A stretch of 64,000 nucleotides of DNA from Gammaproteobacteria bacterium. Its GTDB lineage: Bacteria; Pseudomonadota; Gammaproteobacteria; Natronospirales; REEB76. The notes under the pieces are model-generated. The model was not told the DNA's origin and searched no databases. It saw only the letters and a list, made by a program, of their open reading frames with translations. How positions within the stretch are numbered: the stretch's first letter is position 1; each line of letters starts with the position of its first letter. Shown piece after piece: positions 1,157 to 7,831 of the stretch. The translations under genes were made by a program, and so were the position numbers. The stretch lies in NCBI GenBank assembly GCA_036383255.1, contig DASVOS010000013.1:62001-126000 (forward strand), read 5' to 3'.

Positions 1157-1426
1157 ATGAACAGAGACATCAAGCTCGCCATCACCGCCGCCGTGGCGGG
1201 TGTCGCGACCATCGCCGCCGCGTCCGCCATGGCGGCCGATAAGCCCGCCCAGGAGAAGTGCTTCGGCGTGGCCGCGGCCCACCAGAACGACTGCGCCACC
1301 GCCACCAACTCCTGTGCCGGCAGCGCCACCAAGGACCACCAGGCGGATGCCTTCGTGTACCTGCCGAAGGGCCTGTGCGAGAAGCTGGCCGGCGGCACCA
1401 CCACCGCGCCCGCCAAGAAGGGCTGA
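1157..1426 (+). CDS. bufA: Bufferin precursor peptide, BufA1 class (DUF2282)
   Basis: An 89-residue exported precursor of the DUF2282 family. Residues 1-26 form a signal peptide (MNRDIKLAIT..., cleavage after AMA). The mature part has the four family cysteines at 35 (EKCFG), 46 (NDCA), 53 (NSCAG) and 74 (GLCEK). In the recently described bufferins, an MNIO enzyme (BufB) with BufC converts some of these cysteines to thiooxazoles and the product binds copper in the periplasm. Placing this protein there rests on family and neighbours. The ATG at 1157 has a GGAGG 9 bases upstream. It is followed after 18 bases by bufB. Confidence 0.88.
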   Translation: MNRDIKLAITAAVAGVATIAAASAMAADKPAQEKCFGVAAAHQNDCATATNSCAGSATKDHQADAFVYLPKGLCEKLAGGTTTAPAKKG

Positions 1427-1444
1427 GTCCCCAGGGGATCAGCC

Positions 1445-2305
1445 ATGGATACGACGGTATCCCGTCCGGACCCGGTCCCCGCACGCGCGGGGATCGGCCT
1501 CCGGGCGCCCCACCTGCGGGAAGTGCTCGAGCACAAGCCCGCCGTCGCCTGGTTCGAGGTCCACAGCGAGAACTACTTCGCGCCGGGCGGCCGCGCGGTC
1601 GCCGAGCTGGATGCGGTGCGCCGCGACTACGCCCTGAGCCTGCACGGCGTGGGCCTGTCGCTGGGCGGCTGCGATCCCCTGGACGCGGCTCACCTGCAGC
1701 ACCTCAAGCAGGCCATCGCGCGCTTCAGCCCCGCGCTCGTCTCCGAGCATCTGTGCTGGACCGCCGCAGGTTCCCACCTGCATGACCTCCTGCCGCTGCC
1801 CTACACCGAGGAAGCGCTCGCGCACGTCACCGCGCGCATCGCCGAAGCCCAGGACCGGCTTGGCCGGCGCCTGCTGGTGGAGAATGTCTCGAGCTATCTC
1901 GAGTTCGAGCACTCGACGATCCCGGAATGGGATTTCCTGCGGGAGGTGGCGGCCCGTTCCGGCTGCGGCATCCTGCTCGACGTGAACAACATCTACGTGA
2001 GCGCCGAGAACCACGGCTTCGATGCGCGCCGCTACCTCGCGTCCATCCCGGGCCGGGACGTGGAGGAGATCCATCTCGCCGGCCACCTGCGCAGGGAGCT
2101 GGAGCAGGGCACCCTCCTCATCGACAGCCACAGCCGGCCGGTGGCGGACCCGGTGTGGGCGCTGTACGTCCACGCCCTCGAGCTCATGGGCCCCAAGCCC
2201 ACGCTCATCGAGTGGGACAACGATCTGCCGTCATTCGGCACGCTCATGAGCGAGGCCGCCAAGGCCGAGAGCCACCTCGGACGGTGCCATGCAGCGGCTG
2301 CCTGA
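1445..2305 (+). CDS. bufB: BufB, DUF692 multinuclear non-haem iron oxidase (operon 1)
   Basis: A 286-residue DUF692/MNIO enzyme that should oxidatively modify cysteines of the adjacent BufA1 precursor in the cytoplasm before export. The family's metal-binding positions are visible along a TIM-barrel-like sequence: HSEN at 40-43, H67, EH at 101-102, EN at 146-147, DVNN at 179-182, H210 and H214 (IHLAGH), DSH at 227-229 and E256. Length is normal. It starts 18 bases after bufA1 and overlaps bufC by 17 bases, the standard bufA-bufB-bufC order. The exact modification cannot be read from the sequence. Confidence 0.92.
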   Translation: MDTTVSRPDPVPARAGIGLRAPHLREVLEHKPAVAWFEVHSENYFAPGGRAVAELDAVRRDYALSLHGVGLSLGGCDPLDAAHLQHLKQAIARFSPALVSEHLCWTAAGSHLHDLLPLPYTEEALAHVTARIAEAQDRLGRRLLVENVSSYLEFEHSTIPEWDFLREVAARSGCGILLDVNNIYVSAENHGFDARRYLASIPGRDVEEIHLAGHLRRELEQGTLLIDSHSRPVADPVWALYVHALELMGPKPTLIEWDNDLPSFGTLMSEAAKAESHLGRCHAAAA

Positions 2306-3047
2306 ACTGCAACGCCACTTCGCCCAGGCCCTGCGTGGCGGAGACGTGGTGCTGCCGCTGCGTGAGCGCGGTCTGCCGGGCGCGCGCCGCCTGCAGGTGT
2401 ATCGCCACAACCATCTCAGCGCCTTGCAGGGCGCGCTGCGGGCGGCCTATCCCGCGACCGAGCGGCTGGTAGGGGAGGCGTTCTTCGCCACCGCCGCGGA
2501 GGCCTACATCGCGCACAACCCTTCCCACAGCGGCAACCTGCAGGACTACGGCGGCGCCTTCCCGATGTTCCTGCAGGGCTATGCCCCCGCCGCGTCGCTG
2601 CCGTATCTCGGCGACGTGGCGGCGCTGGAATGGCGCCGCCTGCAGACCGCCATCGCGCCGCCGCATCTGCCCATGGACCTGCACTCCCTGGCACAGGTGC
2701 CCGAGGAGCGGCTCCCGGAACTGTGCTTCCACCACCAGCCCGCGGCGCGGGCGCTGGATTCGCGCTTCCCCATCCTCAGCATCTGGCAGTTCTGCCAGCA
2801 GGCGGAGCCCGAGGGGGAGCTGGACTTCACGCGCGGCGGCGAATGCGTGCTGCTCTCGCGGCCCAGGCTGGACGTGGAGATGCGCCTGCTCACGCCGGGG
2901 GAATATGCCTTCCTGAAGCTGCTGTGCCGGGGCGCGACCTTCGAGGATGCCTGCGGCGCGGCACTGCAGCAGGAACCGCATTTCGACGTGCAGGAGAGGT
3001 TCGCGGCGCTGGTGCGGGACGAGATCCTGACCAGCTTCTATTTCTGA
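2289..3047 (+). CDS. bufC: BufC, DUF2063 partner of BufB (operon 1)
   Basis: A 252-residue protein with an N-terminal DUF2063 region (about residues 5-95, with LRAAYPATERLVGE) and a C-terminal winged-helix-like part. DUF2063 proteins act as the precursor-recognition partner of DUF692 enzymes. Its start lies inside the end of bufB, suggesting coupled translation and stoichiometric production. Sequence similarity to the BufC of operon 2 is low outside the DUF2063 core, in keeping with recognition of a different precursor class. Confidence 0.88.
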   Translation: MQRLPELQRHFAQALRGGDVVLPLRERGLPGARRLQVYRHNHLSALQGALRAAYPATERLVGEAFFATAAEAYIAHNPSHSGNLQDYGGAFPMFLQGYAPAASLPYLGDVAALEWRRLQTAIAPPHLPMDLHSLAQVPEERLPELCFHHQPAARALDSRFPILSIWQFCQQAEPEGELDFTRGGECVLLSRPRLDVEMRLLTPGEYAFLKLLCRGATFEDACGAALQQEPHFDVQERFAALVRDEILTSFYF

Positions 3048-3069
3048 AACAAGCGAGGGGAGGACGGGG

Positions 3070-6583: not shown

Positions 6584-7479
6584 GGTGTCAATTCCAGCGC
6601 GACGTCCTGTCGCGGCTGCACGCCACTTTGTGCAGCAGCTCCCTTCAGGATGGGCGCGGCGATGCGGCGCGCCTGGTCCAGTTCCGCCATCAGCTCCGCG
6701 AGCGGCGGGATGTGGGCGTCGCGCTCGATCATGGTGGAGACCGGGCCGTAGCTGCGCAGCGCCTCGGCGTAGAGTTGCCACACGTCGCCGATCACCGGAT
6801 GGTCGTGGGTGTCCACGATGATGTTGCCGTTGTGGGTGTGGCCCGCCAGGTGGAACTGGCGCACCCGGGCCGCGGGGATGCCGCGCAGGTAGTCGCGGGG
6901 GTCGAACTCGTGGTTGTGGCTGCTCACATAGATGTTGTTCACGTCCAGCAGTATCAGGCAGTCCGCCGCCTCGGCCACCGCCGCCAGGAATTCCCACTCG
7001 CTCATGGCGGACTGGGTGTAGGTCACGTAGCTGGACACGTTCTCCAGCAGGATCTGCCGGCCCAGGAAGTCCTGCACCTCGCGCACCCGCGCGGCCACGT
7101 GGGCGACCGCCTCCTCGGTGTAGGGCAGGGGCATCAGGTCGTGCAGGTTCATGCCGGCGACGCCGGTCCAGCACAGATGGTCGGATATCCACTGGGGTTC
7201 GACCCGCGCCGCCAGCGCCTTCAGGCGCTTCAGGTACTCGCGGTCCAGCGGGTCGGCGCTGCCGATGGACAGCGACACGCCGTGCATCACCATGGGGTAG
7301 AGCGCGCGGATGCGGTCGAGGTAGTGGAGCGGCTTGCCGCCGTCCACCATGTAGTTCTCGGAGATGATCTCCAGCCAGTCCAGGGCCGGCTTCTGTGCGA
7401 GGATCGCGTCGTAATGGTCGGTGCGCAGCCCGAGGCCGAACCCGAGGTAGGGACGCGTCTTGGGGTCTTGCTTGCTCAC
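6580..7479 (-). CDS. bufB: BufB, DUF692 multinuclear non-haem iron oxidase (operon 2)
   Basis: A 299-residue DUF692/MNIO enzyme, recognisably paralogous to the one at 1445 but divergent. Metal-site motifs are intact: SENY near 41, MHGVSLSIG near 65-73, [33 protein letters not shown] and an MIERD glutamate. It has a GTG start (GTGAGCAAG). The start lies 20 bases downstream of a terminator hairpin that separates it from bufA2, so it should be made at lower level than its peptide substrate. Expected to act on the BufA2 precursor encoded upstream. Confidence 0.92.
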
Positions 7480-7498
7480 GCCGGGATTCTACCCCTCT

Positions 7499-7535
7499 AA
7501 AAGGAAAACCCGGCCGCGTAGTTCCGCGGCCGGGT
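7499..7535 (-). terminator. Intra-operon terminator/attenuator between bufA2 and bufB
   Basis: Perfect 11-bp stem (ACCCGGCCGCG / CGCGGCCGGGT) with a 6-base loop. Read on the minus strand it is followed by a T-rich run (TTTTCCTTTT). It lies wholly between the bufA2 stop and the bufB start. Partial termination here would give a high precursor-to-enzyme ratio. Confidence 0.8.
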
Positions 7536-7567
7536 CGTCACATCAAGCTTGAGGCTTGAAGGGCTGA

Positions 7568-7831
7568 TCAGCCCTTGTCGCCTTCGAACTTGCCGCCGGC
7601 CTTGTCGCAGTCGGCCTTGCTGACCACGGTGAAGCCCTTGCCCTTGCAGGAGTTCTGGCCCTTGCAGGCGTGGTCGGCGGACTTGCAGGCGCTCTCGCCC
7701 TTGCAGGCGTTGCCGCCCACGCACTTGCCGGTGGCAGCGGCGCCGTCGGCGGCGGTGGCGAGCGGGGCCAGCACGAACAGGCTGGCGGCGACGGCGGCGA
7801 TGGCGATACCGGAGACTTTGGTCGTGTTCAT
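7568..7831 (-). CDS. bufA: Bufferin precursor peptide, BufA2 class
   Basis: An 87-residue exported peptide. A signal peptide (1-28, cleavage near ATA-ADG) precedes a mature part with six cysteines at 37, 43, 49, 56, 62 and 75. They lie in a near-periodic Cys-Lys/Gly pattern (GKCVGGNACKGESACK..., then CKGQNSCKGKGF). This is the BufA2 type and differs from the four-Cys BufA1 at 1157. The BufB/BufC pair encoded downstream should modify some cysteines, and the product probably binds copper in the periplasm. The ATG at 7831 has GAAGGA eight bases upstream; longer upstream starts would bury the signal peptide. Confidence 0.85.
   Translation of the reverse strand: MNTTKVSGIAIAAVAASLFVLAPLATAADGAAATGKCVGGNACKGESACKSADHACKGQNSCKGKGFTVVSKADCDKAGGKFEGDKG

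Follow-up and report, generated by a model that had tools for sequence, protein, structure and literature searches.

The window (the whole 64,000-nucleotide stretch of DNA that was analyzed) carries two convergent bufferin operons of different class at 1157–7831 (Table 1). The plus-strand Buf1 operon is ordered bufA1-bufB1-bufC1-doxX and the minus-strand Buf2 operon bufA2-bufB2-bufC2; both are complete and of ordinary gene content, the latter without DoxX, and all Buf2 genes are intact. An earlier note had described a four-Cys BufA1 (DUF2282) set with doxX and a six-Cys BufA2 set, each carrying its own DUF692 enzyme and DUF2063 partner. Profile matches bear this out: every named gene is present, and the coordinates are accurate. 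The peptidase-like gene, the yqjD/E/K-like genes, the hairpin and a third precursor on another contig were missed by that note.

Table 1. Features of the bufferin locus, with positions in the window and the evidence for each.
Feature	Position	Strand	Evidence
bufA1, four-Cys DUF2282 (Buf1) precursor, 89 aa	1157-1426	+	PF10048 7.1e-22, 77.6 bits (cut-off 22.4)
bufB1, MNIO (DUF692) maturase, class 1, active-site motif E-W-D-N	1445-2305	+	NF050167 MNIO_BufB 387 bits (cut-off 310)
bufC1, DUF2063/RRE partner protein	2289-3047	+	PF09836 1.7e-24
doxX-family membrane protein, closes the Buf1 operon	3070-3555	+	PF07681 3.4e-15; after bufC1 in family relatives too
yqjD/yqjE/yqjK-like membrane genes, between the operons and outside both bufferin sets	3832-4916	+	DUF883, Phage_holin_3_6 matches
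Exported HExxH...E peptidase-like protein, 4-bp overlap with bufC2	4929-5807	-	Open reading frame, motif
bufC2, DUF2063/RRE partner protein	5804-6583	-	PF09836 2.4e-18
bufB2, MNIO maturase, class 2, active-site motif E-R-D-A	6580-7479	-	NF050167 396 bits
Terminator-like hairpin separating bufA2 from bufB2, a 12-bp stem with a T-rich tail	7507-7536	-	Sequence scan
bufA2, six-Cys Buf2 precursor, 87 aa	7568-7831	-	NF050166 Cu_RiPP_BufA2 81.8 bits (cut-off 60)

The Buf1 genes are nearly continuous, with overlaps or short gaps (18 nt between bufA1 and bufB1). By eye, the BufA1 N-terminus combines a basic start, a hydrophobic stretch and an AMA-AD site, an apparent Sec signal peptide; a profile search found bufA1 to be the sole DUF2282 match across its own genome. 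BufA2 holds four central Cys-Lys motifs. Its signal peptide carries the motif K-x-S/T-G-x-A-L-A-x-A-A-A-x-L-F, common to BufA2 proteins (95 aligned) and absent from BufA1. A sigma-70 promoter scan over 800–8400 returned no match. No NrsF gene was found in the genome, and NrsF-type control of Buf1 was rejected accordingly.

None of the other bufferin loci examined contained homologues of the yqjD/E/K-like genes. A gene (8202–8963, plus strand) separated from bufA2 by 370 bp and transcribed away from it encodes an exported DsbA/thioredoxin_4-like protein with a CPAC motif; no homologue occurs near other buf operons, which ruled it out as a bufferin disulfide partner. Elsewhere in the window, a low-GC stretch on the minus strand (38817–43280; 53–60% vs about 67%) encodes a 1487-aa RHS/YD-repeat protein, with a small open reading frame (38344–38808) just downstream on the same strand.

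Enzyme classes and precursor pairing

The enzyme pairs are clearly diverged, as had been noted earlier: BufB1 and BufB2 share 50% identity over 260 aa, BufC1 and BufC2 28%. In the MNIO tree, Buf1 enzymes form one clade (support 100) and BufB1 joins its own family (support 82). BufB1 and BufB2 fall in separate clades, which rules out one operon as a recent duplicate of the other. Both proteins retain all 18 of the polar residues conserved without exception in the MNIO alignment, one of them the proposed catalytic Asp. The residue preceding this Asp separates the classes, being Trp (EWD) in 23/24 class-1 and Arg (ERD) in 105/106 class-2 enzymes. The residue following it is Asp in 94/106 class-2 enzymes and in no class-1 enzyme; this site has been described as a selectivity position, with the preceding Asp as the proposed catalytic base (PMC13097082). 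BufB2 has Ala here, as do three other class-2 enzymes. Contact with the substrate Lys is predicted for this position, and the exchange could alter selectivity.

The two maturase pairs differ in class, and each agrees in class with its adjoining precursor. This agreement holds in all 115 complete A-B-C triples (23 Buf1 and 92 Buf2; 0 mixed), a set in which certain genomes present in two collections contribute the same locus twice, 80 loci were picked by BufB2 similarity, and the classification models were seeded from window proteins. The earlier note's two dedicated systems stand as class-matched pairs; the step from dedicated to non-redundant is not supported as it was put. According to that note, each BufB/BufC pair would modify its own precursor alone, and the products would have separate roles, perhaps for different metals or levels of copper stress. 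The matched triples, the class-diagnostic active-site residue and the signal-peptide motif confined to class 2 are all compatible with such exclusive pairing, as are preliminary results that make the signal peptide part of BufB-BufC recognition in Buf1 (PMC12452194). The diverged BufC pair and the EWD/ERD split likewise leave room for strict class specificity.

We nevertheless regard one-to-one pairing as doubtful, given the precursors that lie outside a matched operon. The only BufB genes of the window's own genome are the two at this locus, yet the genome has a third precursor, an orphan six-Cys BufA2 on contig C7 (G000:C7:37922-38149; L203:8881-9171, minus strand). This orphan matches NF050166 at 77 bits and bears the class-2 signal-peptide motif; no MNIO or other maturation enzyme lies beside it, and the genome has no third enzyme pair. 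Both precursor classes accompany a single, class-2 BufB in three other genomes (G058, G120 and G236), one of which (G058, reported 100% complete) has the operon bufA2-bufB2-bufC2-bufA1 (L207:4266-6504). In G150 (L184:4144-6962), whose BufB2 is the closest to that of the window, a BufA2-type gene sits directly upstream of bufA1-bufB1-bufC1-doxX, a further BufA2 is an orphan, and bufB2-bufC2 stand without an adjacent precursor. In such mixed genomes, either one pair would serve both classes, or modification would occur in trans, or some precursors would be left unmodified. Moreover, preliminary evidence gives Buf2 of Caulobacter vibrioides a function similar to that of Buf1 (PMC12452194). Inferring non-redundant products for different metals goes past this evidence, and no result of the analysis speaks for separate metals or copper levels.

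Natural tests are offered by two matched pairs with an orphan, by both precursors alongside a lone enzyme pair, and by a precursor sitting in the operon of the other class; this locus and its relatives bear on maturase specificity and on why many genomes keep two classes.

Occurrence and history of the locus

Having both bufferin classes is common in this bacterial class. Among 369 genomes sampled from it, DUF2282 occurred in 97, BufA2 above cut-off in 67, and both in 32, against 17.6 expected if independent (Fisher p 3e-5, indicative only as the genomes are related). Both classes have also been reported in C. vibrioides and in L. pneumophila subsp. fraseri, the latter with five Buf1 and two Buf2 genes (PMC12452194).

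In family relatives with sufficient contig, the genes run in the order metG, rnfB, nth, DUF1841, bufA1-bufB1-bufC1-doxX, with rhlE behind doxX in two of the loci (L083, L087). These flanks also border the locus in the window, where Buf1 stands in inverted orientation and shares the interval with Buf2, the yqj and peptidase genes and the DsbA-like gene. By synteny, Buf1 is the ancestral cluster of the family at this locus. No Buf2 operon was found in the sampled family relatives, and BufB2 clusters among enzymes from other families, with 80–81% identity to the nearest. MetG is about 63–67% identical to its counterpart in the genomes holding those enzymes, and BufB1 reaches only about 60% identity within its own family. 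These comparisons suggest that Buf2 was gained beside the older Buf1, perhaps by transfer. Transfer is only suggested, since BufB2 is generally better conserved than MetG between these genomes. Alternatively, Buf2 may have been lost in the sister genus, the window's own genus being represented in the sample by this genome alone.

Its absence from relatives and the high BufB2 identity to other families, together with an accompanying gene that is not conserved and Ala at a mostly-Asp site, would also suit Buf2 being a spare that arrived recently or is decaying, brought in with a passenger peptidase and perhaps contributing little. This is unlikely: all its genes are intact, every invariant active-site residue is kept, GC is even across the bufferin locus, and the short BufB2 branch in the MNIO tree (0.17 vs 0.62 for BufB1) suggests constraint.

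The peptidase gene itself starts within the final bufC2 codons, and is probably co-transcribed with Buf2 given the overlap; its product has a signal-like start and HEMVH plus a downstream Glu. It had no Pfam match, a weak NCBIfam match (E = 0.069) and nothing credible among PDB sequences. Homologues conserve the HExxH motif and are rare (20/369 genomes of the class). None adjoins another buf operon in roughly 120 loci examined; those in G318 and G110 lie on different contigs from the buf operons, and the nearest, in L174, lies in a separate unit 5 kb off. This lack of recurrence rules out a conserved Buf2 partner, and we regard the gene as a passenger. A dedicated Buf2 maturation or turnover protease, which the overlap, the apparent signal peptide and the conserved motif might indicate, is very improbable in light of this distribution.

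Hairpin between bufA2 and bufB2

The 88-nt bufA2-bufB2 gap has a folding energy of -42.9 kcal/mol (z = -4.35). In a final count that tests every stem length, 36/89 unique Buf2 gaps hold a T-tailed hairpin of at least six pairs. Dinucleotide shuffles predict 1.26, and the reverse complement yields 6. An earlier strict count gave 22/94 gaps (1.4 expected) and a one-mismatch count 13/89 (1.7 expected), the latter lower because stems extended into the T tract and the tail was lost; all three counts show the excess. By contrast, Buf1 A-B gaps contained none (0/22), a class difference that partly reflects lack of room, since these gaps are shorter (median 51 nt vs 107 nt in Buf2).

In other RiPP operons, partial termination after the precursor gene yields more precursor than enzyme. 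By analogy, the hairpin likely acts as a partial (leaky) terminator that raises precursor over enzyme, or it may instead stabilize the 3' end of bufA2 mRNA. It is a simple, testable regulatory feature, of which we found no mention in the bufferin landscape paper (PMC12452194).

Proposed function

We conclude, with a probability of roughly 0.78, that the locus holds two intact bufferin (captophorin) clusters of both known classes, class-matched and most likely serving one additive copper-buffering function. Gene content, class matching, synteny and hairpin statistics were observed directly. The predicted chemistry follows the reported function and chemistry of the bufferin classes (PMC12452194, PMC13097082), which are defined in part by a thiooxazole on two central Cys and periplasmic copper chelation for Buf1, and by modified Cys and copper binding for Buf2. 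BufB with BufC would oxidize precursor Cys to 5-thiooxazole prior to export. The modified precursor would then leave via Sec and chelate excess periplasmic copper. Enzymes and precursors would match by class rather than one-to-one, and the orphan BufA2 would most likely be modified in trans by BufB2-BufC2 as well. Both products most likely contribute additively to this single function and would differ in expression design: Buf1 is nearly continuous, and the probable leaky terminator after bufA2 would give Buf2 many precursors per enzyme.

A broader version of this additive, class-matched reading is put forward tentatively. The maturases may be class-level trans-acting machines, with leaky terminators often setting the precursor:enzyme ratio in Buf2 and no such control in Buf1; BufB2-BufC2 would here modify two unlinked precursors.

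Comparison with known systems

Two full operons side by side are rarer than co-occurrence in a genome, yet the arrangement recurs in at least three other records. A Buf1 operon was within reach in 2/80 Buf2 loci from the genome collection (L105, Chromatiales bacterium Ww634; L124, Ctena orbiculata symbiont). The class sample adds adjacent Buf1 and Buf2 in G230 and G365, G230 apparently being Ww634 again (identical BufB1). The full operons lie within a few kilobases of each other in all three, convergent like those of the window in Ww634 (G230; L094, L105) but in tandem in G365 (L093) and the Ctena symbiont. Unlike the window, none has the peptidase or yqj genes between the operons.

With the oxazolin/EGKCG captophorins (HvfABC, FonABC), the window shares an MNIO enzyme with a DUF2063 partner, a precursor with an apparent signal peptide and a thiooxazole product, the last predicted for the window. 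It differs from the oxazolin (Hvf) group: EGKCG repeats are absent from its precursors, the HvfB, HvfC and HvfX models fell below cut-off (NF003818, 253 and 288 bits against 360; NF050145, 51 and 44 bits against 142), and HvfB-like enzymes lie outside both bufferin classes in the MNIO tree. The Buf1 operon resembles that of C. vibrioides in its four-Cys DUF2282 precursor, MNIO enzyme, DUF2063 partner, DoxX and gene order, without the sigma factor or NrsF. The Buf2 operon resembles Buf2 (Buf_6/12Cys, 'Cys-Lys' captophorin) clusters in its six Cys, Cys-Lys motifs, ERD-type BufB, BufC2 and lack of DoxX. It departs from the usual Buf2 in that Ala replaces Asp at the position following the catalytic Asp, bufC2 overlaps a peptidase gene, and the genome has an extra orphan precursor. 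The locus adds a new, well-formed example of two bufferin classes already known.
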